64,000 nt of DNA from NCBI RefSeq assembly GCF_002632615.1, contig NZ_NITZ01000014.1, positions 79,779-143,778 on the forward strand, read 5' to 3'. Of this stretch, positions 49,228 through 64,000 are shown one piece after another. The notes under the pieces were generated by a model. The model saw only the letters and a list, made by a program, of their open reading frames with translations, was not told where the DNA came from and did no database searches. Position 1 is the stretch's first letter. Each line of letters begins with the position of its first letter. Position numbers and translations under genes: made by a program. Source of the DNA: Xenorhabdus miraniensis. Its GTDB lineage: Bacteria > Pseudomonadota > Gammaproteobacteria > Enterobacterales > Enterobacteriaceae.

Positions 49228-52200
49228 TCACTTGTTACGGCATGCTACAGGATTATCCAGATAACCATAGGTAAGAGATCCATCCCCAAGATTGACTTTC
49301 TTTCGGTATCCTGGGTGTTCACCTGAAGTAAATTTATCGTATGCATAGTAACTCCAATTTTTAAGCCATCCATATTTTTTGTATATTATATTCTCTGCTC
49401 CTGCATTATATTGGTTAGCTAATGTCTGATACTCGGAAGCGTATGGCGTCCGTAGACCTCGATCAGAGCAAAATTTGATAACATTATCAGTAGCAACAGT
49501 TGTCCATTCCTCGTTATTGATGAGACCATGATCACTAGGAGTATCCCCGGCTAGTTCCGCTTTTAATGTAGGTCGATTAAAAGTCATCCCACCCGCAGAT
49601 ATAGTGTTAAACATATGCCCCCAATAATTAGCCACAGACACATCAGGGCTGGTAATCACAGTAAAGGTAACATTTTTTGTCTGCTCAGTAAGCGCACCAC
49701 TAGCACCTTCAGCAGTCACTTTCAATGTCGTTTTCACTCCTTTCCCATTAGGGTCAGTTACCTTGATAATGAAGTCACCATTCTCATCCGTATGACCGCT
49801 GTAAGTCTTCGTATTACCACTCAGCACGCCGCCTTTGTCATATAAAATACCTTTTTCAATATCCAGTTTTACGGTAGGTGTTTCATTACCATTTTGACGG
49901 TTGGTCGCTGTCATTTTAATGGTCACCGGTACACCACCAATCGGTTTTTTATCCTTTTGGGTTTTGATCGTTAACTCAATCGACTCAGCTATATTATCAA
50001 CCAGATCGATTTTGGCTTTGGCGGTGGTTTTATCCGCATCTACGCTAAAATCATCTGCGATACCTTTTACCGTGCCATCCTGATTACCCCCTGTGACATT
50101 ACCTTTCTTGGCTTCCTGCTCAGAATCTGTCGCCACTGTCTTACCCAACATCATTTTATCACCATCTGACTTCAGCGGACTGCGGGGAACCATGGCGAGC
50201 TGGATAATCCGGCCACTGTCTTTTGCTTCCAGAATATAGGGTGGCACTGTTTCAGAAATTGTGATGTGGTGGTCAGGATCATTAACTAAGTCGTTGATCC
50301 TTTTCTCTGGTGATGTCGGAGCATTCGGATCATCAATATCGGAATATTTAATACCCCAGAGATACACTGAGTTATCCACATCATCTTTATCATTTTTCTT
50401 AAAGATGTACGAACCGGTCAGGGACTGCCCTACTTCCAGTGTGCCGTTAATCGTTAATCCTTCAATGATGGGCCCTCTGTTTGGATCAATGATTGCCCCG
50501 TCATCGGTTCCTCCGATAAGGGTATGGTCTTGTCCCGTATTTATCACTGCATCAGTCCCGATTTCCTTGAGACCGTTTTTCGGTGTGATGGTAATTTCCA
50601 GCAGCCTGCCAGTATCCTCTTTACCCAGTGTGTAAGAGGGAATATCACCACTCAGGATTTTTTTGCCATCAACCGTGCCTTTGGCTTCAGGGTCCTGTAC
50701 CTCTTCTCTTGGCCCGCCGTTTTTATTCTCCGGCCTTAAACGCTTCCAGACATAGGTGGAATTATCTGTGACATCCCCGTTGTTGGGATTAAATTCATAT
50801 TTGGCCTTTAAGGTTTCATTCAGGTACAGCCTGCCCTCCAACAACAGTTTATCAATGGAGGGTTTTGCTGCCGGATCAAGGATAGTGCCCGGTTTTCCGC
50901 CCATGGAGGTCGTTTTATTCACGGCACTGTCAGTCATGCTGATATCCACCGTTTTAGGCTCACCCTGATCGCTGTTTCCATTAATGGGCTTAACGGTAAT
51001 CGCAAGGGTTTTCCCGGCATCATCCTGCGCTAATGTTTTACTTAAGGTACCGGTTTTATTTTGGGCATTTTTGCCGCTGTCCGGCACGGCCTGATAATCG
51101 GCTTCCGCCACTGTGGTGCCTTTTTCATGCCAGGCAAATTGGGAGAGATCAGTGGCATCCCCGCCGTTATCCTTAAAAGTGTATTGAGCCGTCAGAGGCT
51201 TATTGATTTCCAACTCCCCGCTCAACACAATCTGTTCGATGCCGGGTTTGGCTTTCGGATCAGCCACGCCGCCATTGCCATTGCTCCCGGTAATGCCTTG
51301 GTTAAATTTCGGATCATTCACATCGGCAGTCAGCGGTGCATTAGCCCGTAAATTCGCCTCATTCGCTGCCAGTATCGACACCTCCAGTACCTTGCCGATA
51401 TCGCTGCTTTCAATGGTGTATTTCACCTTGTCCTTATCAGCCGCACCGGTGGCAACCCGCCCTTCGCCGTTTTTCTGCACCAATTCTATCGGCTCTTTTA
51501 CCCCCGCCTCATCGGCTAACTTCATCACCCGTTTCGCTGTCGTGCCTTTTTCTCCCCAGACATAGAACGAGCGATCAGTGGTGTTGCCGCCTTTGGCCTC
51601 AAACTGATAGAGAGCATGCAGGACGCCGTTGACATGCAAAACCCCTTCCAGTTGCAGGCCACTGATGCCGGGGGCTTTGTTTTCATCAAACTCAATCACC
51701 GTCTCCTGCTTTCTGTCCGTACCGTCCACGGCCGTGGTCAGTGTCCAGTTACCGGTTTTCCGCCCAGCGGTCACGACAACTTCATAGACCCCGTCTGACA
51801 CCTCCTTGACGTCACTTATCTGTGGATCTTTACCTTCCCCCTGCAATTGCCCTGATGCAGAAACCCTGATGCTGTCTTTTGCCCCCGTGACCGGTTTGCC
51901 CTGTTTATCTTTCAGCACAACCCGTAAGGTTTTGGTGGAAACACCATCCGCTGCCAGTGCATTACTGCCGTCTGTCGGCTCAACGGTGGGGCTGTTGCTA
52001 TCCAATATATCCGCCAGAGTTTGCCCGAAGTTAATGGTGGCAGGGCGTTTCAGCCGCTTGCCGAACACCTCGGGGGTCAGCGTCCATTTGCCTTTTTTCG
52101 CGCCGGCGGTGACAGGCACTTCATACAGGCCACTGCCCGGCGGGACTTCTCTGGCTTTGCCGTAAGCCGGCAAGGTTTCACCTTTGCCATACAACTCATG

Positions 52201-54825
52201 ATTATCCGGTATCAGGTTAATACTGTTTTCTGCCCCGGTAATGGGATGACCATTGATGTCTTTCAGGTTCAGCCTGATGATGGTGGTATCCCCCTCATTA
52301 GGCAGATCACCTTTTTCCGCTACAAACTCGGATTTATCCGGGTCAACCAACTCCGCCTTTGACGCACCAAAGGTGATTTCTGTCGGCGTTTCCAGCGGCT
52401 TGCCCTCTACTTTGGTCGTGATTTTCCACGAGCCGGTTTTATCGCCGGCTTTGACCTTCACCTTATAAATGCCGCTGCCTGCCGGCTCTTCCCAGACCTT
52501 ATCAATGGTGGGTTTATTTTTGCCGTCACCCGTCAGCGTATCGCCGTTGTCTTCGAATGTGATACTGTCCTTCGCATTCGGGATAGGGTTGCCGGATTTG
52601 TCCTTAAGATGGAGGGTCAGGACGGTGCTGTCCTCGTTATTGGCCGCCAGTACGTTGGTTTCCGGCGTAAACTGTGAGCCTTTAGTATCCACAATGTCCG
52701 TCAGAGACTGACCAAAGGTGATGATGGCGGGTTTCAGCGCCTTGCCGTCCACGTTCGGCGTAATTTTCCAGGTGCCTTTTTTCTTGCCGGCAGTCACCTT
52801 GGCTTTATAGATACCGCTGCCGGTCGGATCTTCTCTCACCTCACCCAAAGAAGGATAAGGCGGTTCACCGTACAGTTCGCTGTTGTCCTTATCCAGTGTG
52901 ATTTTATCGGCCGCACCCGTAATGGGGTTACCGTCCTTGTCTTTCAGGTTCAAGATGATGTCGGTTGTGTCACCTTCCTTGCTCAGGGTGCCCGCTTCCG
53001 GCTTAAACTCAGTGCGGTCGGTATCTATCATGTTCGCCAGTGAATCACCGAAATCAATGACCGTGGGCGTCAGGGCATGGCCGTCAACGTTAGGCTTGAT
53101 AGTCCATTTACCGTGTTTAGTCCCGGCGGTGGCGGTCACTTCATAAATCCCGCTGCCTTCCGGCACTTCTTTCACTTCTGTTCCCAGCGCCGGGTCTTTG
53201 CCGTCACCGGTCAGTTTGGTCTTGTCATCGGTCAGTTTGATATTGCCCGCAGCCCCGGTCACCGGCTTGCCGTCTTTGTCGGTCAGTTTCAGGCGGATAA
53301 CCGTCTGGGTTTTTCCGTCAGCCACCATCGATTTATTGGCGGGTTCGAATCCCGAACCCGCCGGATTGACCGCGGAAGAGAGCACCTGTATCTGCGTTTC
53401 CATCCGGTCAGAGGCATTACCCTGTGTATCATAGGCGATACCGGATAAGGTATAAGTATTATTACCTTTCTCATGGAACGGTGGCAGGGTCAGCAGGTAA
53501 TGGGTGCCGCCGCGAACGGGTTCAGCGGCGAAACCGGCTGTCCGCGCCGAAGCATTCACGCTTTCCAGCTTGCCACCGCCTGCCACCAGACCGGCGGTAT
53601 CCCAGACAATCTCTTTCAGGCCATGTTTGGCACTGACATTGATATTCAGCGGGATGACCGCACCGCCACGCCCGCTAATCCGATTTTCCATCATCAGGCG
53701 TATCAGGTTTTTCTTGCGGTACTCCAGTACGATTTGGTTATTGCGCTCGACCAAATCATAACGCCCGCCTTGCAGGCTGCGTTTGAAGGCCACTACAGAC
53801 GGGTCAACCTGCCTTGACCACGGTGTGCCAATTTCATAATTCAGGCCAAGGTTAAACAGGGTTTCCCCGCCGCCAGAGGTGCTTTGTTTACGGTCAAGCC
53901 CCAGTGTCACCAGCGGGATGGGGGTATAGTTCATCCCCAGTGTAAAGGCCGCCGGGTTTTTCTGCCGGCGCGTTTCGCTCAGTAACCCGACTTCATCCCC
54001 AAAATACTGCTCATAGATTAGTTTGCCCCCCAGTTGCGGGTAGGCAGGAATATACCCTTCGCCGCGCAGGTCAAACCCGTTGGCGGGGCGCTCATCGTAA
54101 TCTTTCAGTTTCTTGCCGTCTTTCCAGCCGCTGGCACGGAAATAACCGTTCGCCCCGAATTTCATAAAGTCACGGGCATATTCGGCACCCACCCCGAAAC
54201 GGGTGTGGTCACGGGTGATGTCGTGGTCAAGAAAGGCGTTATAGCCAAACATGCCGCCATCAAGGAAATGGCGCTGCCCCAGTCCCCAGTTGGCGGTGGT
54301 GCGACTGTCAATATGGCGCAGGCCGAACTGGGTAAAGGCCATCCGTTTTTCCGTGTCATACAGCGGCAACAGCATATCAAACTGGCTGCCGTCCAGCCGC
54401 CCGCGGTCATCCACATTGGCCTGTAATTTAACAGTACCGTACCGTTGCAGCCAGTTCTGCACCGCCTGATTGGCCTCACTGACCGCCATACCGCGTAACT
54501 GGCTCTTGGTGCTGTCCACCAGATTGCCGCTTTTCAGCATCCCCGCAGCACGGGAAGCGGCACTCGCCAGCCAGCGCTCGGTATTGTCTCCGGTATTGGC
54601 GGGGGGGTCGTCATGGCTGGCGGCTTGTTTCAGGCTGTCCGCCAGTATCTGACGGGATTGGGATGGAGGCACATCAATTTCATCGCCGGTTCTGGTGGCC
54701 GCCACGGCAGGGGTAAACGCCCCCGCCACGGGAAATAAAATCTGGGCAACGATATTCACCCACGCCACCTGTTTCAGCCGGTAGCGTTGTCTTTTTGTCC
54801 ACTGCCTGTTTTGTTGCTTTAGCAT
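49228..54825 (-). CDS. Invasin/intimin-like inverse autotransporter adhesin
   Basis: A 1865-residue surface protein. A long signal region (VAWVNIVAQILFPVAGAFTPAVA) is followed by an inverse-autotransporter beta-barrel (about 120-380: GLGQRHFLDGGMFGYNAFLDHDI-type strands, YGANGYFRASGW-like segments). The passenger has about five bacterial Ig-like Big_1 repeats (each with LKDKDGNPITGA and GSGIYxVxVTAG-type strings) and then four repeats of a second type (GLxLxGxLxVNxxLxAxYxF...DxSxYxW). One further Ig-like unit precedes a C-terminal adhesion-like domain with two cysteines. The ATG at 54825 has GGAAGG 9 bases upstream; a TTG at 54834 abuts it. It probably exports the passenger C-terminus outward for adhesion. 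The invertible element lies directly upstream. Confidence 0.9.
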   Translation of the reverse strand: MLKQQNRQWTKRQRYRLKQVAWVNIVAQILFPVAGAFTPAVAATRTGDEIDVPPSQSRQILADSLKQAASHDDPPANTGDNTERWLASAASRAAGMLKSGNLVDSTKSQLRGMAVSEANQAVQNWLQRYGTVKLQANVDDRGRLDGSQFDMLLPLYDTEKRMAFTQFGLRHIDSRTTANWGLGQRHFLDGGMFGYNAFLDHDITRDHTRFGVGAEYARDFMKFGANGYFRASGWKDGKKLKDYDERPANGFDLRGEGYIPAYPQLGGKLIYEQYFGDEVGLLSETRRQKNPAAFTLGMNYTPIPLVTLGLDRKQSTSGGGETLFNLGLNYEIGTPWSRQVDPSVVAFKRSLQGGRYDLVERNNQIVLEYRKKNLIRLMMENRISGRGGAVIPLNINVSAKHGLKEIVWDTAGLVAGGGKLESVNASARTAGFAAEPVRGGTHYLLTLPPFHEKGNNTYTLSGIAYDTQGNASDRMETQIQVLSSAVNPAGSGFEPANKSMVADGKTQTVIRLKLTDKDGKPVTGAAGNIKLTDDKTKLTGDGKDPALGTEVKEVPEGSGIYEVTATAGTKHGKWTIKPNVDGHALTPTVIDFGDSLANMIDTDRTEFKPEAGTLSKEGDTTDIILNLKDKDGNPITGAADKITLDKDNSELYGEPPYPSLGEVREDPTGSGIYKAKVTAGKKKGTWKITPNVDGKALKPAIITFGQSLTDIVDTKGSQFTPETNVLAANNEDSTVLTLHLKDKSGNPIPNAKDSITFEDNGDTLTGDGKNKPTIDKVWEEPAGSGIYKVKVKAGDKTGSWKITTKVEGKPLETPTEITFGASKAELVDPDKSEFVAEKGDLPNEGDTTIIRLNLKDINGHPITGAENSINLIPDNHELYGKGETLPAYGKAREVPPGSGLYEVPVTAGAKKGKWTLTPEVFGKRLKRPATINFGQTLADILDSNSPTVEPTDGSNALAADGVSTKTLRVVLKDKQGKPVTGAKDSIRVSASGQLQGEGKDPQISDVKEVSDGVYEVVVTAGRKTGNWTLTTAVDGTDRKQETVIEFDENKAPGISGLQLEGVLHVNGVLHALYQFEAKGGNTTDRSFYVWGEKGTTAKRVMKLADEAGVKEPIELVQKNGEGRVATGAADKDKVKYTIESSDIGKVLEVSILAANEANLRANAPLTADVNDPKFNQGITGSNGNGGVADPKAKPGIEQIVLSGELEINKPLTAQYTFKDNGGDATDLSQFAWHEKGTTVAEADYQAVPDSGKNAQNKTGTLSKTLAQDDAGKTLAITVKPINGNSDQGEPKTVDISMTDSAVNKTTSMGGKPGTILDPAAKPSIDKLLLEGRLYLNETLKAKYEFNPNNGDVTDNSTYVWKRLRPENKNGGPREEVQDPEAKGTVDGKKILSGDIPSYTLGKEDTGRLLEITITPKNGLKEIGTDAVINTGQDHTLIGGTDDGAIIDPNRGPIIEGLTINGTLEVGQSLTGSYIFKKNDKDDVDNSVYLWGIKYSDIDDPNAPTSPEKRINDLVNDPDHHITISETVPPYILEAKDSGRIIQLAMVPRSPLKSDGDKMMLGKTVATDSEQEAKKGNVTGGNQDGTVKGIADDFSVDADKTTAKAKIDLVDNIAESIELTIKTQKDKKPIGGVPVTIKMTATNRQNGNETPTVKLDIEKGILYDKGGVLSGNTKTYSGHTDENGDFIIKVTDPNGKGVKTTLKVTAEGASGALTEQTKNVTFTVITSPDVSVANYWGHMFNTISAGGMTFNRPTLKAELAGDTPSDHGLINNEEWTTVATDNVIKFCSDRGLRTPYASEYQTLANQYNAGAENIIYKKYGWLKNWSYYAYDKFTSGEHPGYRKKVNLGDGSLTYGYLDNPVACRNK

Positions 54826-54924
54826 ATTTATCAACCTTCCGAATCAACATTATTCCCACCAGACACCATCAGGCGCCGGTGCTATTGACTCATCCCGGAG
54901 CGTTGTGACTATCCCCTCGGCGAA

Positions 54925-55237
54925 TTGACAATTAGTACCAAACTGTCAAGTCACCTAAAACAGCTATTTTTAAACGTAGTTCATTTTCTTATTATCTGCA
55001 AAACGCCAAATAACATATTGATATTAAAATATTAATAAATTATTGATTTTTGATTAATCCCATTTCTATAGCCTGAAATTTTTTTCCAACTTTTTCTATA
55101 CAATTTCCCAATCTTGTATGTCACTCAAATTCGAAAGACTCATTTGCTTAATTGTCTGTTTAAGTTGGTTTATTCGGCCGATTTTTTTATTTTTCGGATG
55201 AAAAATCCTTAGTTAACAGTTTGGTACTAATTGTTAA
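54925..55237. repeat. Invertible element bounded by 25-bp inverted repeats
   Basis: The left repeat (54925-54949) and right repeat (55213-55237) are inverted copies, 23 of 25 bases identical. The perfect 19-bp core reads ACAGTTTGGTACTAATTGT on the plus strand at 55216-55234, its complement at 54928-54946. Each repeat is itself a dyad: 9-base arms (TTAACAGTT with AATTGTTAA, 8/9 paired) around a 7-base centre TGGTACT, the layout of a tyrosine-recombinase core site. The 263 bp between the repeats carry no gene apart from the recombinase tail. The left repeat is 99 bp from the adhesin ATG. Confidence 0.85.
55095..55124 (-). promoter_or_regulatory. Candidate invertible promoter of the adhesin
   Basis: On the minus strand a -35 GTGACA (55119-55124), an 18-bp spacer and a -10 TATAGA (55095-55100) point toward the adhesin, with transcription starting near 55088. 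It lies inside the invertible element, so the displayed orientation would be ON. The match is moderate (5/6 and 4/6) in AT-rich DNA where chance matches are common. Confidence 0.4.
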
Positions 55238-55846
55238 CTTTTTTCGTTTTCCTTTATCGTCCCATATTGTCTCAAATCTTCCCGCATTACTCGCGGTGTA
55301 GCGGACTGTATGGCGAATATTCCGGTGACCTAAATAGTCTTGAATCAAGCGGGTATCTACCCCATTGTCTGCCAACGCATAACCACAGGCATGCCTCAAC
55401 ATGTGCGGATTCGCGCAAATCGACAATTTTGCCTTTTGGCTGGTTTGCCGAAGAATTTTATAAATCTGCTGACGTGACATACGTTGACCACTACGAGATA
55501 AAAATAACCAATCGGGTTCTTTACTATCAATTGCCTGACCATCTAATAATGCGGATTTCTTCGGCAAATACTTCGAACGCTCAGCTAACCAGCGACGTAC
55601 CAATTGAATTTCACGGGATACCATTGGGTGAATAGTAGAAAAACCATTTTTTAATCGTTGTACTCGCAAGCTTTTTCCTTCCAAGTCAACATCAGAAATT
55701 CGCAAATTCAATAATTCAGATACCCGGAAACCATGAATAAATCCCATAAATATCATACAAATATTACGTGCTGCGTGAGGATATTTATCCAACGCAGTGA
55801 GCAATACATCAATTTCAGACTGGGTCAAATATTTTCGCTTTAGCAT
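55187..55846 (-). CDS. FimB/FimE-like tyrosine recombinase
   Basis: A 219-residue integrase-fold recombinase of the short FimB/FimE/MrpI type, lacking an N-terminal core-binding domain. The catalytic set is Arg41 (GFRVSELLNL), His148 and Arg151 (HMLRHACG), His174 (LGHRNIRHT) and Tyr183 (VRYT). The adhesin follows 360 bp downstream on the same strand. The last 17 codons cover the right inverted repeat: LTISTKLL is encoded by it. Inversion would replace the final ten residues (LLTKDFSSEK) by about 30 others ending KTPNNILILKY. No other fimbrial genes are nearby. Confidence 0.9.
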   Translation of the reverse strand: MLKRKYLTQSEIDVLLTALDKYPHAARNICMIFMGFIHGFRVSELLNLRISDVDLEGKSLRVQRLKNGFSTIHPMVSREIQLVRRWLAERSKYLPKKSALLDGQAIDSKEPDWLFLSRSGQRMSRQQIYKILRQTSQKAKLSICANPHMLRHACGYALADNGVDTRLIQDYLGHRNIRHTVRYTASNAGRFETIWDDKGKRKKLTISTKLLTKDFSSEK

Positions 55847-56182
55847 ATTTTTTATCTCCCGATAATTAATTGAAAAGAAGTTATAAGGAATACCTTAATT
55901 ATTCTTGCTCATTATTTTCAGACTGCAATATCAACCACAGAATAATCTGATGATTTTTCTGTAAATAAGATTTGTGTGGCTAAAAAATAATTGTCATTTG
56001 ACCCAATAACTTCTATAGCTGTATCGTGTCAGTTATCGAGAGAAAAAAATAAATATTTTTATAGACTGGATAATGCCTTTCATTTTTACTAAGGAAAAAC
56101 ATTATAAGGATGAATATCCTGCGGATTAAAAGTTGACAGAAATATGTTTATATTGGCAGTGACATATTTCTGTCATAAAAAA
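55847..56182. other. Intergenic region with a 13-bp hairpin
   Basis: This holds the recombinase promoter and, near the DUF333 gene, a perfect 13-bp stem TGACAGAAATATG/CATATTTCTGTCA (56134-56146 with 56163-56175) with a 16-base loop. Read on the minus strand it is followed by AACTTTTAAT, so it may terminate the lipoprotein gene. No gene seen. Confidence 0.5.
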
Positions 56183-56473
56183 TTAAATTGACGCACATCC
56201 GCCATCCAGCAAAGCCTGTTCATTACAGCGACGGCCATTAGCCAGTTGGCACACAGGCACTTTCTGACCATTCAATTGATTAGTCAGTGTCTGAATCCCT
56301 CCTGCGTCAGTGCAAGTTTCACTTGCATCTTTACTCAAGTGAATCCCCAGATCAGAGTAGTGATAATGTTTGTATCGATTTAATGAAGCATTTGTTTGCT
56401 GCCCACTGCAACCAGCCAATATGCCGAAAACCAACAACAAACTACACAAAATAATTCTCCGCCTTAAAAGCAT
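56183..56473 (-). CDS. DUF333 lipoprotein
   Basis: A 96-residue lipoprotein. RRRIILCSLLLVFGILAGC gives a basic start, hydrophobic core and lipobox with Cys22 as the lipidation site; Ser23 next to it favours the outer membrane by the +2 rule. The mature part has the DUF333 pattern of paired cysteines (ETCTDAGG, PVCQLANGRRCNEQAL, GGCAS). Related to E. coli YoaF and similar proteins of unknown function. Confidence 0.88.
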   Translation of the reverse strand: MLLRRRIILCSLLLVFGILAGCSGQQTNASLNRYKHYHYSDLGIHLSKDASETCTDAGGIQTLTNQLNGQKVPVCQLANGRRCNEQALLDGGCASI

Positions 56474-56519
56474 ATTTTCTCCCGTTGAATCATCGAGTTA
56501 ATCTATAGATCAATATAAA

Positions 56520-56852
56520 TCAGTGTCCTGCACTTTTAGAAAACAAATTAATAACTAAAACGCCGGCAATAATTAGAAGGATTCCAATAATTGCGGGTAA
56601 ATCAAGTTTCTGTTGATATAAAAATATACCTGCTATGGAAACTAACACTATGCCAAGACAAGACCAAACGGCATAAGCAATCCCCAAGGGCATTACTTTA
56701 ACAACTTGTGATAACGCCCAAAAAGATAAACAATACCCAAGCACAACAATAATCGAAGGTACTAAGCGAGTAAAGCCATCCGCAGTTTTTAACATCGTTG
56801 TTGCTACCACTTCAGACAAAATTGCGATAAATAAGTAACCCCACACGCCCAT
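56520..56852 (-). CDS. emrE: EmrE-like small multidrug resistance efflux protein
   Basis: An SMR-family proton-coupled exporter with four membrane helices. The essential glutamate lies in LSEVVATTMLK (Glu14 by EmrE numbering), and GIAYAVWSCLGIVLVS plus LDLPAIIGILLIIAGVLVINL match EmrE. The ATG at 56852 gives 110 residues, exactly EmrE length, with GGTGAG just upstream; the longer frame to 56885 adds 11 unsupported residues. Members act as antiparallel dimers exporting cationic drugs or osmolytes. Confidence 0.9.
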   Translation of the reverse strand: MGVWGYLFIAILSEVVATTMLKTADGFTRLVPSIIVVLGYCLSFWALSQVVKVMPLGIAYAVWSCLGIVLVSIAGIFLYQQKLDLPAIIGILLIIAGVLVINLFSKSAGH

Positions 56853-57772
56853 ATTGCTCACCAACCTAAAAATAAGATAGACCACATTCCCAAAAAAACG
56901 GGTTAATCTACCACAATTCGGGGTGTAACGCTTTAACGAAAAACACCATTTTATCTATCATTATTGGTGTAAAATCATGCAGTTATAAGGCCGGGTTTTA
57001 TAAATTTATTTTATTAAGTTATCCACATGTATCAACATCACCTCCCTCATCACAAATAACACCACTTTCACAACAATTTTAATCAAAATACTTCCCATGA
57101 TTGATAAAAAATATATTTAAAAAGAATTAATAATCCAATGGTAAAATTACTTACACTAGCGATTTACTTCAATATAAAAAAGAATGAAAGGCTGTTTACC
57201 TTAATAAAAACAAAACGATACAAATAAAATATAAACTTGAAACCATAAACAATATAAATTATATCATTTTGCGATTTATAGGCCATTAAAAAAAATTAAC
57301 CATATTAAATAAAAAATAATATAGACTTCAATCCAAATGACAATCACTATTACAGCACAAAGAATTATTACCATGCAATAATGATGAGTGAAACACAATG
57401 ATTATCATTGAAAATAAAAAGAATCTGGGCGGAACAGGATGGGTGACAAGGATGTATACTTGAAAGAATCAGAAATAAGACTTTAACTATTGGCTAACTA
57501 TTGACTGAAAATAAATATCAACTATTTTGCATAAGGAAGAATGCTGAAAGGTTGCAAGATTGGCTGTAATGATACCATGGTGAATAATGCTAACACTTAT
57601 TGAATAAAAATAACAAATTAATATTTAAACCATCAGGAACAAAATATAGTTTGCTAAATTATGTTAATACTAAAAACATAAATAAATTAAGGTTAGGCAC
57701 TCGCTGAAATTTACCCATTTGTATCATAGATTACAAATAACTTGCAAGCGGAATGCGTTCGTATAATTTATT
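56853..57772. other. Long AT-rich regulatory region upstream of the NRPS
   Basis: About 920 bp with no credible gene on either strand and very low GC. It includes the possible Fur site at 57394-57412. An in-frame TAA at 57764 excludes an earlier NRPS start. The composition makes silencing by H-NS plausible (inferred). Confidence 0.55.
57394..57412 (+). promoter_or_regulatory. Fur-box-like palindrome
   Basis: CAATGATTATCATTG (57396-57410) is a perfect 7-1-7 inverted repeat. Over 19 bp it agrees with the classical Fur consensus at 13 positions by my count. It lies about 360 bp before the NRPS ATG and may control iron-responsive transcription; distance and lack of a mapped promoter keep this tentative. 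Confidence 0.4.
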
Positions 57773-60700
57773 ATGAAAACAACTGAAGGTTCGCTAAATT
57801 CGAACTTATATGACCTTCATCCCGCTCAAGAAGATGTGTTTTACGAGCAAACCCTTCATGAAAATACTCCATTACACAATATAGGCTGGTATACCTTGAT
57901 GGAAGGTGAGATTGATATCGTCATCTTGCAACAAGCCTGGCAATTACTGCACCAACATATTGATATCCTAAGATTACGTTTCTCGATTAATTCGGATAAT
58001 GAAGCAACGCAATATCTTGAAAATCAGAGCAATCCAGAGTCAATCTTATTCCATGATTTTTCAACGCAGCCTGATCCTGAAGAAAAAGCCCGGCATTGGA
58101 TGCAGCAACAGGTAAGCCAGCCCATCAACTTCCCAAATGAGATCTTGTATCAGATTTCATTAATTCGCATTGCGAGTGAAAGGTATTATTTTTTCAATAA
58201 ATTCCACCATATTATCATTGATGGGACCGGTTTATTGCGACTTCATGAATATGTTTTTAAGTTGTACTCATGCCTGAAAAATGGAACATCAACAACTTGG
58301 TTATCAGGAATTCCACAATATTTAGATGTAATAGAGAAAGCAAAAGAATACCTGAATTCTTCCCATTACGAAGAAGATAAAAGCTACTGGTATAATTTTT
58401 TAGCAAAAAATGACATCCATCAATTAACGCCTTATTATCAAAATAAGGGTTCTGGTAGCGATGAGTTGGTATTGCCATCGTCAATTAAAGCAGATTTACG
58501 CGCTTTTTGTGAAGAAAATAAGACGAATCTTCTCGCTGTCTTCTCTAGTCTGGTCACCATTATGATGTCAGAACTGACAGGACAGCAAGAATTAACATTT
58601 AATACCATCACTCATGGAAGAAAGACAAAATCAGAGAGAAATATCGTAGGGATGCTGGCAAATATATACCCCGTACATTGCCATGTTTCTGACGAAATCA
58701 GTATGATTGAGCAGATTAAACTAACCGAATCAGCGCTAAAAGAGAGTTATCACCACGGTCAATTCCCTCGTTCTCATTTGGTCAGAATAGCTAATCATTA
58801 TGGAATTGCTTTACCCAATATATTTATATTCTATGAAAAACTTGCAGGGTCAACACCTGAAATCAGCCAGGCACAATATCATGTTATCGACGGATTCTCT
58901 AATATTGATCCTATCGCTTTTCGATTAAAAGATTTTGGACATAATCAGGAAATAACAATAACGATAGATTACTTACAGGAATATTTTAGCGCTCAAGATA
59001 TAAAAAAAATATTTAAACGATTGCAAAACTTATTGACTGCTCTGCTTAACTCCTCTTCTGTATTAGTCAGTGACTTACCTGTTTTATTAGAACAAGAGCG
59101 CCATACCCTATTGCACTGCTGGAACCAGACCAACGTCCCCTACCCGCAAGAGATGATTCTACAACAGCAGTTTGAGGTTCAGGCCGCAGCAACACCCGAT
59201 AATGTGGCGTTAATATTCGAAGAGGAAACCCTGACCTACCGTCAGCTCAACGAACGGGCAAATCAACTCGCTGTTGTGATACGCGAATGTTACCAACAGC
59301 AACATAACGCAACAATGCAGGCAGATACACCAATAGCCCTCTACCTCGATCGCAGTCTGGAAATGGTGATCAGTATTCTGGCGGTGCTGAAAGCCGGCGG
59401 TGCCTATGTGCCGATTTCTCCCGAATATCCACCGGAGCGAGTCCAGTTTATTCTGGAAGATACCGGAAGCCCGTGTGTGATAACCCAGCAACGATATCTG
59501 ACGACACTGGAAAAATGTGCGCATATTTTACCCATCCAACCTGCGCTGATAGCCGCAGATGACAGTACAATCACCAAAGATCAACCAGCGGAAAATTTAG
59601 TGCCGGTAAACAAAAGTACAGATCTGGCATACATTATCTACACCTCCGGAACGACCGGGCAGCCGAAAGGTGTTGAGCTGACCCATCAGAACGTCATCAA
59701 TCACCTGTGTTGGATGCAGGCTCAATATCCCTTAAGTGCATCGGATAAAGTCCTGCAACAAATCCCTTATACCTTTGATGCTTCAGTCTGGGAGCTGATT
59801 GCAGCTAACTGGTTTGGTGCCAGTATTGTGATGCCCTCACCGGATGTGCATAAACAACCCGAAGTCCTGCATCAACTGATACAGAAAACCGGCGTGACGG
59901 TTGTGCAGTTTGTCCCATCCATGTTAGGTGCTTTCTGCCAGACAATACGGGATTTAGGCCAGCAATTGCCTGACACTATCCGTTATGTGCTATGCGGCGG
60001 AGAAGCGTTGACGATGTCCCATGTCAGCGCATTCAGAGCCATAAATAGGGGTTCGAGTACTTTAATTAATCTCTATGGCCCAACTGAAACGACAAATGAT
60101 ATCACTCACTTTGATGTCACTGATGAATTTAGTGGCCATGTCCCCATTGGCAAGGCACATCATAATACCCATCTGTATGTCCTTAATCGTAATGGCAAAC
60201 TGTCTCCTATTGGTGCGCCCGGAGAGTTGTATATCGGCGGTGCCGGACTGGCACGGGGATATCGGAACCGTCCGGAACTGACTGCTGAGCGTTTTGTCGA
60301 AAATCCGTTTGCCAGTGCTGAAGATAAGGCTAACGGTTATACCCGTCTGTACAAAACCGGTGATTTGGTGCGCTGGCTGCCGGATGGCAACCTCGAATAT
60401 CTGGGGCGCAATGATTTTCAGGTCAAAATCCGCGGTTACCGCATTGAGCTGGGTGAAATTGAAACGGCTTTATCCTCCCACCCACAGGTGAAACAAGCCG
60501 TGGTGATTGACCAGGAGCATGCGGGCCATAAAGCACTGGCCGCTTATCTGGTGACAGACGAAACGCTGACCAATGATACTCTGCTGGAATATCTTTCAGC
60601 CCTTTTGCCGGAATATATGATACCCGCCAGCTTTACCCGCATTGAGGCCATCCCCCTGACCACCAATGGCAAACTCGACCGTCATGCCTTGCCAGCGCCA

Positions 60701-63700
60701 GTATGGGAAAACCGGGATCGTTATATAGCACCGCGTACGGAGTTGGAAACTCAATTGTGTGCACTCTGGCAAGATGTTTTGGGATTAGAGCGGATCGGCA
60801 TTGAGGACAACTTCTTCCGTATCGGTGGCGATTCGATTATCAGTATCCAGTTGGTTTCCAAACTGCGGCAGGCAGGTTTCTCTCTTCAGGTCAAATCGAT
60901 TTTTGAAGCACCAACAGTATCGCGTCTGGCGCAACTCCTGACACAAACAACATCCGCAGTCACCGTGGTTGCTGAGCAGGGATTATTAAGCGGGGAGTTT
61001 GATTTATTACCTATCCAGCAAGATTTCTTCAATCAAAATCTGCCATATCCGCACCATTGGAATCAGGCATTTATGTTCCGGCTTCCCGGGAATATTCAGC
61101 ACAAACATATTGCACAGGCCCTGATAGCGCTGGCAGAGCGACATGATATGTTACGTGCCCGTTTTATCAACACAGCACAGGGCTATCGTCAGTGTTACCC
61201 CGCAGGAATGCCGTTCCGGTTGCCTGAATTACTGCATTGTGATGTGAGAGAGCTGGATGAAGCTGAACGATACCAGCAACTGACCCAATGGCAGAGTGGT
61301 TTTGATTATTATGAGGGGCCTTTATGGCAAGCCGCTCACCTGACCGGATATGCCGACGGCAGTGCCCGATTATTTTTCGCCTTTCACCACCTGATTATTG
61401 ATGCCGTATCGTGGCGAATTATCGCCGAAGATATGCGCCTGCTACTACAAGGCACAACGCTGCCACCGAAAACCAGTAGTTACCGGCAATGGGTCACTGC
61501 TGTCCAACGTTATGCAGTACAGCATCAAGACGAAGTGCCCTACTGGCAGGGCGTCATGACAGGGAAAAAAAGCTATCCGGTGATGGGAGAAATCAACTCG
61601 CAACAGTTGAGCTTATCATCCGAACTGACCAGCACCCTGCTGCGTGAAGCCAATTCAGGTTATCACACTGAAATCAATGACCTATTGCTCAGCGCCCTCA
61701 CATTGGCATTGCAGACAACCTTCTCCCAACCGATGAACGCCATCATTCTTGAAGGACATGGACGGGAAACCATCGACAATACGCTGGATATCTCCGAAAC
61801 CGTTGGCTGGTTTACGACTGTGTATCCTGTTTGCCTGACCGTGCAGGATGATATTGCAGAAACCATTATTCACACCAAAGAGATGCTGCGTGCTATTCCC
61901 AATAGGGGCATTGGCTACGGTGTCTTACATCAGGCGGGATATCTGACCGGAGATTTACCTGCCATCAGCTTTAACTATCTTGGCCAATTCCTCGGCCAAT
62001 TCGGCGGTGAGACCAGACAAGCCAACCATCAGGATTGGACGCTGATCGACGATAGCTGTGGTTCAGTGATCGCCAATGAGAACGGCAGTCATTTACTGCT
62101 GGATATCAATGGTGCTGTTCAGGCGGGAAAACTGCAATTCAGCGTAATGTCCCGATTGCCATCAGACCAGACACAAATGTTTATCACGGCTTTTGAGCAA
62201 GCCCTCAATCATGTCATCGCTGCCGGTCAGAAACAGGCTCAATCGGGTGGAATGAAAACACCCAGTGATTATGAATTTAAAGCCGTTTCAATTGAACGCC
62301 TAAAACGTTTGCAGCAAAGCTATCAGGTGGAAACCCTGTACCCTGCCACCAGTTTGCAGCAAGGACTTATTTATCACCATCTGGCTCAACCACAGGATGA
62401 TGCCTATCGTGTGCAACTATTGTTGGATTATCACACCAATATCGATCTTGCCGCCTATCAACAAGCCTGGGCGCTGACTTCACTGTGCTTCCCTATCCTC
62501 AGAACCGCATTTGATTGGGAAGGGGAAATTTTACAGATTGTGACTGAGGGTCCAAGTCTTGGTCCGGCTAATTTCACCATCAAGGATATCAGTCAATTAC
62601 CAGAAGAAGAGAAGGATCGGGCAATTGAAGCGATCCAACAACATGACCGTACCCTGCCTTTTGATTTTAGTCAGCCCGGTTTAACCCGCTTTACGTTCAT
62701 CAAGCAACATGAACAGTTGGCGACAATCCTGATTACACAACACCACGCGATTATCGACGGCTGGAGTGGCCCGATTTTATTGCAGACCGTACATGAGTAT
62801 TACAACGAACTCACGCAGGGGCGCATCCCCCAAGTAGTGGTAGATAAAGCCTATCTGGCAACCCAGCAATACTATCTGGAGCATCAGGCTGAATCTGAAG
62901 CTTATTGGGCTGAGCGTAAAACGCATTTCCGGGAACCTAATGATTTGTCAGTCCTGTTAAGCCATCACGTTGATTTAACACAGATTAAAACCGTTGAAAA
63001 ACCCGCCGAACAGATGCTCACTGTACAGGGAGATTTTTATGAACAACTGAGGAGCATGTGCCGGATGCAAGGTGTTACGCTCAATGTGGTCCTGCAATTT
63101 GCCTGGCATAAATTACTGCACAGTTACACCGGGGATGAACAGACCATCGTGGGCGCCACCGTTTCCGGCCGTGATGTACCGGTGGCGGGCATTGAGTCCA
63201 GTGTCGGCTTGTATATTAATACCCTGCCGTTGATGGTGCAGTGGACTCAGGCGGACAATATCTCTGCGGTTTTACAAGACATACAGAAGGATATCGCCGC
63301 ACTCAACAGCCACAGTGCCGTATCACTCGCCAGCTTGCAGCCAGACGGAGAACGGTTATTCCATAGCCTGTTCGTCTTTGAAAACTACCCGGTTCCTGTG
63401 GTGAGCGAAAACGAGAAAGGGATTGAAAATACCCAGAAGTTCCGCCAAGCCATCGAAAAAGTGGATTATCCGTTGTCATTGATGGCCTACGAGCAGGGCG
63501 ACAGTTTAATCATAAAATTGGGTTATGGTGAAGGCTGGCTGACAGATAAACAAGTGCTGCGTTTGCTTGGTCAGCTTGAGCGCATTCTGCACGCCGTGGC
63601 CTGTGACCCACATCAGCCGCATACGTCAATCATGTTCCTTAGTGAAGAAGAGCGCCATACCTTGCTGCATACATGGAACCAGACCGATGTTTCCTACCCG

Positions 63701-64000
63701 CAGGACAAAACCCTGCAACAATTGTTTGAAGCACAGGTGGAAATCACGCCGGATAACGTGGCCCTGGTGTTTGAGGGAGAAACACTGACCTACCGCCAGC
63801 TCAACGAACGGGCGAACCAGCTAGCAAGCGCTATTCGCGAACATTACCAGCAGCAAAAAAATGCACCGCTGCAAGCCGGCACACTGATCGCCCTTTATTT
63901 TGACCGCAGTCTGGAAATGGTGATCAGTATTCTGGCCGTGCTGAAAGCGGGTGGCGCTTATGTGCCTATTTCACCGGCATATCCCGCGGAACGCGTCAAT
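57773..64000 (+). CDS. Non-ribosomal peptide synthetase, 5' part (C-A-T-E-C-A...)
   Basis: An open frame of 2076 codons that continues past the window. An N-terminal condensation domain has HHIIIDG (His145-His146, Asp150), so an acyl starter or upstream donor is expected. The first A domain (about 435-970) has YTSGTTGQPKG near 623 and NGKLD near 963; its specificity positions read D-A-W-Q-L-G-L-N-D, nearest in my memory to glutamine codes. T domain: GGDS, phosphopantetheine Ser1021. E domain (about 1077-1500): HHLIIDAVSWR, ETVGWFTTVYPV, FNYLGQF. The second C domain has HHAIIDG near 1656-1662, and a second A domain is cut at residue 2076. Product unknown. Confidence 0.93.
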   Translation, partial: MKTTEGSLNSNLYDLHPAQEDVFYEQTLHENTPLHNIGWYTLMEGEIDIVILQQAWQLLHQHIDILRLRFSINSDNEATQYLENQSNPESILFHDFSTQPDPEEKARHWMQQQVSQPINFPNEILYQISLIRIASERYYFFNKFHHIIIDGTGLLRLHEYVFKLYSCLKNGTSTTWLSGIPQYLDVIEKAKEYLNSSHYEEDKSYWYNFLAKNDIHQLTPYYQNKGSGSDELVLPSSIKADLRAFCEENKTNLLAVFSSLVTIMMSELTGQQELTFNTITHGRKTKSERNIVGMLANIYPVHCHVSDEISMIEQIKLTESALKESYHHGQFPRSHLVRIANHYGIALPNIFIFYEKLAGSTPEISQAQYHVIDGFSNIDPIAFRLKDFGHNQEITITIDYLQEYFSAQDIKKIFKRLQNLLTALLNSSSVLVSDLPVLLEQERHTLLHCWNQTNVPYPQEMILQQQFEVQAAATPDNVALIFEEETLTYRQLNERANQLAVVIRECYQQQHNATMQADTPIALYLDRSLEMVISILAVLKAGGAYVPISPEYPPERVQFILEDTGSPCVITQQRYLTTLEKCAHILPIQPALIAADDSTITKDQPAENLVPVNKSTDLAYIIYTSGTTGQPKGVELTHQNVINHLCWMQAQYPLSASDKVLQQIPYTFDASVWELIAANWFGASIVMPSPDVHKQPEVLHQLIQKTGVTVVQFVPSMLGAFCQTIRDLGQQLPDTIRYVLCGGEALTMSHVSAFRAINRGSSTLINLYGPTETTNDITHFDVTDEFSGHVPIGKAHHNTHLYVLNRNGKLSPIGAPGELYIGGAGLARGYRNRPELTAERFVENPFASAEDKANGYTRLYKTGDLVRWLPDGNLEYLGRNDFQVKIRGYRIELGEIETALSSHPQVKQAVVIDQEHAGHKALAAYLVTDETLTNDTLLEYLSALLPEYMIPASFTRIEAIPLTTNGKLDRHALPAPVWENRDRYIAPRTELETQLCALWQDVLGLERIGIEDNFFRIGGDSIISIQLVSKLRQAGFSLQVKSIFEAPTVSRLAQLLTQTTSAVTVVAEQGLLSGEFDLLPIQQDFFNQNLPYPHHWNQAFMFRLPGNIQHKHIAQALIALAERHDMLRARFINTAQGYRQCYPAGMPFRLPELLHCDVRELDEAERYQQLTQWQSGFDYYEGPLWQAAHLTGYADGSARLFFAFHHLIIDAVSWRIIAEDMRLLLQGTTLPPKTSSYRQWVTAVQRYAVQHQDEVPYWQGVMTGKKSYPVMGEINSQQLSLSSELTSTLLREANSGYHTEINDLLLSALTLALQTTFSQPMNAIILEGHGRETIDNTLDISETVGWFTTVYPVCLTVQDDIAETIIHTKEMLRAIPNRGIGYGVLHQAGYLTGDLPAISFNYLGQFLGQFGGETRQANHQDWTLIDDSCGSVIANENGSHLLLDINGAVQAGKLQFSVMSRLPSDQTQMFITAFEQALNHVIAAGQKQAQSGGMKTPSDYEFKAVSIERLKRLQQSYQVETLYPATSLQQGLIYHHLAQPQDDAYRVQLLLDYHTNIDLAAYQQAWALTSLCFPILRTAFDWEGEILQIVTEGPSLGPANFTIKDISQLPEEEKDRAIEAIQQHDRTLPFDFSQPGLTRFTFIKQHEQLATILITQHHAIIDGWSGPILLQTVHEYYNELTQGRIPQVVVDKAYLATQQYYLEHQAESEAYWAERKTHFREPNDLSVLLSHHVDLTQIKTVEKPAEQMLTVQGDFYEQLRSMCRMQGVTLNVVLQFAWHKLLHSYTGDEQTIVGATVSGRDVPVAGIESSVGLYINTLPLMVQWTQADNISAVLQDIQKDIAALNSHSAVSLASLQPDGERLFHSLFVFENYPVPVVSENEKGIENTQKFRQAIEKVDYPLSLMAYEQGDSLIIKLGYGEGWLTDKQVLRLLGQLERILHAVACDPHQPHTSIMFLSEEERHTLLHTWNQTDVSYPQDKTLQQLFEAQVEITPDNVALVFEGETLTYRQLNERANQLASAIREHYQQQKNAPLQAGTLIALYFDRSLEMVISILAVLKAGGAYVPISPAYPAERVN

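Follow-up and report, generated by a model that had tools for sequence, protein, structure and literature searches.

The locus described here raises the question of whether a short stretch of DNA in front of a giant adhesin gene is an invertible switch, operated by the recombinase encoded next to it. The locus lies in a 64-kb stretch of Xenorhabdus DNA, which we call the window, meaning the whole stretch that was analyzed. Comparison with related loci leaves inversion of the segment well supported, and the neighboring enzyme is very probably able to flip it, which would turn the adhesin on and off.

Architecture of the locus

A sequence-only reading of the window had proposed two 25-bp inverted repeats that are 23/25 complementary, share an exact 19-bp core, and are spaced 263 bp apart, and this description is confirmed (Table 1). 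The pair is the only exact inverted repeat of at least 15 bp with 50–600 bp between arm starts in the 64-kb window. Its 19 exact bases exceed what is found in 300 dinucleotide shuffles of positions 54300–56500, where the longest exact inverted repeat is 17 bp and the mean is 10.1 bp. Direct reading also bears out that each repeat is itself a dyad, with 9-base arms (8/9 bases paired) and a 7-base center. A short segment with flanking inverted repeats beside a recombinase gene is the arrangement that characterizes FimB-type promoter inversion switches. The element had been placed between the two genes, but the right repeat actually lies inside the recombinase ORF, an overlap that the earlier reading missed.

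Table 1. Features of the adhesin-recombinase locus (window coordinates).
Feature	Position	Strand	Remarks
Inverse autotransporter adhesin	49228..54825	-	1865 aa from ATG 54825 (ORF open from TTG 54834); start by leader comparison
Conserved adhesin leader with predicted RNA structure (two stems)	54825..54910	-	13 leaders aligned
Adhesin-side inverted repeat (recombination site)	54925..54949	+	core also next to homologous recombinases
Invertible segment	54950..55212		263 bp, 27% G+C; both orientations in homologous units; both junctions in L100
Candidate promoter toward adhesin, weak	54973..55001	-	TTGCAG-17-TACGTT; -35 at 55001-54996, -10 at 54978-54973
IHF-like site TATCAATATGTTA	55011..55023	-	at most one mismatch to the IHF consensus WATCAANNNNTTR at one alignment position in 15/15 elements
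Recombinase-side inverted repeat	55213..55237	-	inside the 3' end of the recombinase gene; core also next to homologous recombinases
FimB-type tyrosine recombinase	55187..55846	-	219 aa as read; 239 aa with a different tail if the element is inverted

Homologous units in Xenorhabdus

The homologs of the recombinase at about 66–86% identity are all from Xenorhabdus (one partial copy reaches 93% and one broken copy 59%). Some homolog is present in 28 of 149 genomes sampled across the family, the best beyond the genus being 60% identical. The core-gap-core site pattern occurs in 12/30 Xenorhabdus genomes, the other 18 being without the exact pattern, and in 1/149 of the family-wide genomes. The latter is G001, taken as X. 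khoisanae MCB and the nearest genome compared.

Homologous units keep the core, a pitch of 288–292 bp, and the overlap with the recombinase end. In group A units an adhesin follows, and a branch with support 97/96 separates these units from the rest of a tree of 32 recombinases. Among the matches listed, group B units have a carB-like gene on one side and, on the other, an mrp-like fimbrial operon with its 3' end toward the unit. Group C units neighbor ter-like genes or, in the case of L089 and L085, precede fimbria-like genes; the names of group B and C neighbors were recognized from protein starts rather than by family search. X. mauleonii carries four A units, including a tandem pair in L072; the two in G029 are 12 kb apart. 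A block inside the element, CTTTCGAA at window positions 55130–55137, was also seen, of which CTTTCG is kept in 15/15 aligned A elements. In L073, L074, L077, L078, and L083 the recombinase-element unit adjoins an mrp-like fimbrial operon (named by appearance) at its 3' end; transcription from an outward promoter there would be antisense to the operon.

Inversion of the segment

The sequence-only reading had suggested comparison of the same locus in relatives as a check on inversion, and such comparison finds both orientations. Of the 15 A elements whose interior can be read, six lie relative to the recombinase as in the window (the window itself, L062, L064, L065, L068, and the first unit of L072) and nine are inverted (L061, L063, L066, L069, L070, L071, the second unit of L072, L075, and L099). 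This count leaves out L067, whose interior reads N, L084, which has one site, and L100, a contig without the recombinase. On the recombinase tree at least five orientation changes are needed for 14 of these 15 units (L099 was left off, its recombinase start being missing). L065 and L066, only about 0.04 apart on the tree, are in opposite states. Group B contains both states too, L081, L082, and L083 differing from seven others on the tree.

Both orientations are also found in one assembly, G001. The first 41 bases of its contig C23 (L100) are identical to the contig's own adhesin-side flank read on the opposite strand, and after them come the repeat, the whole element, the repeat, the flank, and the adhesin. 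The 41-mer has no other copy in the genome at three or fewer mismatches. The left junction is that of the window, and at the right junction the other end of the element is joined to the adhesin via a hybrid repeat, as predicted if the crossover occurs inside the core. The recombinase of this locus falls in an assembly gap, because contig C157 stops at the base corresponding to window position 57164. Both orientations were probably present in the G001 culture, which a mixed population would explain most simply; a less simple possibility is a genuine inverted duplication concealed by the assembly gap. An assembly fold-back is judged less likely: the joins coincide precisely with the repeats, one of the repeats is a hybrid, and the flank copies enclose the complete element. 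In 35 other units and the window, the two 40-base flanks are different from each other at 24–35 positions. At the level of sequence comparison, inversion and the boundaries of the element are established.

The recombinase and its two tails

The neighboring gene had been read as encoding a FimB-like recombinase, and rightly so. Its product scores 257 bits against the NCBIfam invertase model NF007370 (cut-off 221) and 216.6 against NF007371, slightly below the cut-off of 222. The catalytic R-H-R-H-Y set is complete, R41, H148, R151, H174, and Y183 being invariant when the protein is aligned with five FimB-like proteins. Values of pN 0.101 and pS 0.632 indicate strong constraint on the recombinase body.

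Since the recombinase-side repeat falls among the final codons of the gene, every flip exchanges the tail of the enzyme; reversal of the element in silico yields the longer ORF and the other C-terminal tail. A repeat inside the coding end of the recombinase, such that inversion alters the C-terminus, is what defines ipuS-like switches. As far as sequence can tell, both the type of the recombinase and the exchange of its tail are firm. Across 15 A units the enzyme is 228–239 aa long in the inverted state and 209–228 aa in the window state, and in every unit the window-state form is shorter by at least two residues. The long tail has no stop within the first 54 bases in 15/15 A copies, while the other two frames have stops in 6/15 and 15/15. 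It is present in 12 of the 17 B/C copies counted (L097, L108, and L109 were left out), and these 12, selected for the long tail, have no stop within the first 72 bases, against 11/12 and 12/12 with stops in the other two frames. Codon comparison of the long tail gives 0.50 in B/C units, the other two forward frames giving 0.84 and 0.89; in A units the value is 0.74, with 1.04 and 0.71 in those frames. The sequences suggest coding constraint on the long tail in B/C units, while the A values give no clear sign of it.

The adhesin and its leader

The adhesin contains an IAT_beta domain (PF11924, 338 bits, at 102–366) followed by Invasin_D3, BIg21, and the C-terminal adhesion domain InvE_AD. An N-terminal IAT beta-barrel ahead of an Ig-like passenger is the mark of inverse autotransporters (type Ve). 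In the 13 aligned leaders compensatory changes occur in 6/20 predicted pairs, and two pairs of the predicted structure involve the GG of the likely ribosome-binding site. The leader RNA structure is a possible second level of control. An Rfam search gave no match within 54000–57800.

In all 16 recombinase-bearing A units examined beyond the second repeat, the adhesin leader follows. In L065 (X. japonica) the leader passes straight into internal adhesin sequence; the adhesin start is evidently deleted there, and the recombinase and element are retained. The 13 conserved leaders include those of L192 and L195, near-related adhesin genes with no recombinase site within the fetched upstream DNA. 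These unswitched paralogs share the leader yet have no element; therefore, the switch is not needed for an adhesin gene to persist.

Candidate promoter and its direction

A minus-strand promoter inside the element and directed toward the adhesin had also been claimed. A weak candidate with that direction exists, but the claimed position near 55088 is probably wrong, as neither the consensus scan nor conservation supports a promoter or start there. The candidate in Table 1 is the best conserved sigma-70-like site outside the repeats, with a mean of 4.9 bits over 15 elements, whereas the best such site in the opposite direction has 2.3 bits. It is not significant, 18 of 120 column permutations reaching 4.9. 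The consensus scan of 54800–56500 found 6 promoter-like sites against 6.3 ± 2.7 in shuffles, and only one of them, at 55068–55039 (9/12), is on the minus strand inside the element. The DNA upstream of the L192 and L195 adhesin genes, compared with the elements in search of a promoter, gave short matches only. The window orientation is likely ON, and the promoter direction proposed for it agrees with that of ipuS, where ON means the shorter enzyme and a start in the element.

Proposed mechanism and alternatives

We consider it probable that the locus is a self-contained phase switch, in which the recombinase inverts the 263-bp segment carrying the adhesin promoter and the flip also exchanges the tail of the enzyme. 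The FimB-type recombinase would bind both dyad repeats and pair them, perhaps aided by IHF bending, and crossover inside the 19-bp core would invert the segment. In the window orientation (putative ON), the promoter near the adhesin-side repeat would read out into the adhesin leader. In the inverted orientation (putative OFF), it would point at the recombinase gene from its 3' side, leaving the adhesin silent. The recombinase tail would be shorter in the putative ON state and longer in OFF. We infer the action of the neighboring recombinase, the promoter with its direction, and ON/OFF expression of the adhesin.

The element might instead invert without a promoter of its own, its orientation deciding whether transcription from the recombinase gene, located immediately upstream of the adhesin and on its strand, can read through. 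Co-orientation of the two genes fits this, as do the outcome of the permutation control and a density of promoter-like sites no higher than in shuffles. We nevertheless regard it as unlikely, given that the two terminator-like sites in 54800–56500 both lie outside the element and that in the closely similar ipuS, where this question was tested, the mapped start lies within the element and only in ON (PMC6083910). It is very improbable that the altered recombinase tail, as self-regulation, is the main product of inversion and the adhesin effects are incidental. Both alternative ends recur across units, with the long tail open in 15/15 A and 12/17 B/C copies counted, as such a view would have it; yet the A-unit codon value of 0.74 stands against 0.71 in another frame, the A units examined lead without exception into an adhesin leader (in L065, that of a deleted adhesin remnant), and truncated IpuA inverts in both directions (PMC6083910). 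Least of all do we expect a frozen relic, an element that once inverted but has stopped switching in the window strain. Although the related units L084, L091, L093, and L094 have lost one or both sites, the numerous changes of orientation between close relatives, the presence of both junctions in the nearest genome, the intact catalytic residues, and the constraint on the recombinase body all speak against it.

If the locus is a self-contained phase switch, a more speculative and rather doubtful extension can be considered. The short (putative ON) and long (putative OFF) recombinase forms may differ in activity, direction preference, or stability, a built-in feedback by which the switch state of each cell would set its own flipping rate. 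Xenorhabdus would then use several self-tuning cassettes, some in tandem, showing different sets of giant adhesins in the nematode and insect phases. Because the truncated IpuA of E. coli works both ways, a functional difference between the two forms is to be shown and not assumed.

Relation to known inversion switches

The fimS switch of E. coli, with FimB and FimE, has in the available description FimB-type recombinases, a similar size (314 bp), and a position just upstream of a surface gene; it differs in driving a fimbrial operon. IHF is involved in fimS, as it may be in the window element, and fimE lies outside the switch, unlike the recombinase gene of the window. The Xenorhabdus B/C relatives (e.g. 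L073, L089) have related recombinases, a near-identical core, and a similar pitch and recombinase-end overlap, but are located at the 3' side of a fimbrial operon, before a fimbrial gene, or beside ter-like genes, and not before such an adhesin. The mad switch of Photorhabdus is, in the text available, a short promoter inversion for a surface structure in a nematode symbiont, but it drives a fimbrial locus (PMC5903667); the comparison covers the kind of switch and its target.

The sequence-only reading had called a one-gene switch for an inverse autotransporter much less familiar. This holds for the inverse type, while for autotransporters in general ipuS (IpuA, ipuR-upaE) of uropathogenic E. 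coli CFT073 is a close precedent. According to the accessible part of that report, the distal repeat lies inside ipuA and the ON state gives a truncated enzyme, which still inverts both ways; the start site is inside the 260-bp element, in the coding region of the full-length recombinase (PMC6083910). Common to ipuS and the window are the FimB-type recombinase, the repeat in its coding end, an autotransporter adhesin as target, and the shorter enzyme in ON (putative ON in the window). In contrast, ipuS as described there has 7-bp repeats, a two-gene operon with a LuxR-type regulator, four acting recombinases, and a single locus, and UpaE is presented in that part as an autotransporter with a C-terminal translocator and is not termed inverse (PMC6083910), whereas the window adhesin is of type Ve.

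Both the change of the recombinase tail and an autotransporter target have a precedent in ipuS. As far as the search extended, the type Ve target, the one-gene recombinase-switch-adhesin cassette, the fact that it has multiplied within the genus, and the recurrent alternative-tail pair are new. Among the matches listed from the open-licence literature, none describes an invertible switch before an inverse autotransporter or for Xenorhabdus invasins; duplicated invasins are reported in Xenorhabdus, with no switches mentioned in the part of that source available (PMC3220699). Beyond fimbrial operons and a single autotransporter operon of E. coli, the range of FimB-type promoter inversion is thereby extended to multiplied one-gene inverse-autotransporter cassettes in nematode symbionts. 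With many natural copies in both states and two recombinase ends each, feedback of the switch state on its own recombinase would become directly testable.

Additional observations

A distant FimB-like recombinase (about 45% identical) is divergent from an inverse autotransporter of about 1000 aa, beside two-component-system-like genes, in L110:3039-7669 and L104:3606-8077. No inverted repeat of at least 13 bp has both arms between recombinase and autotransporter in these two loci, and with no clear switch repeats between the genes we do not claim them as switches. In L104, one AT-rich 16-bp repeat pair flanks the distant recombinase. In the window itself, a very large ORF at 57773-64000 (+), NRPS-like by appearance, runs off the end.
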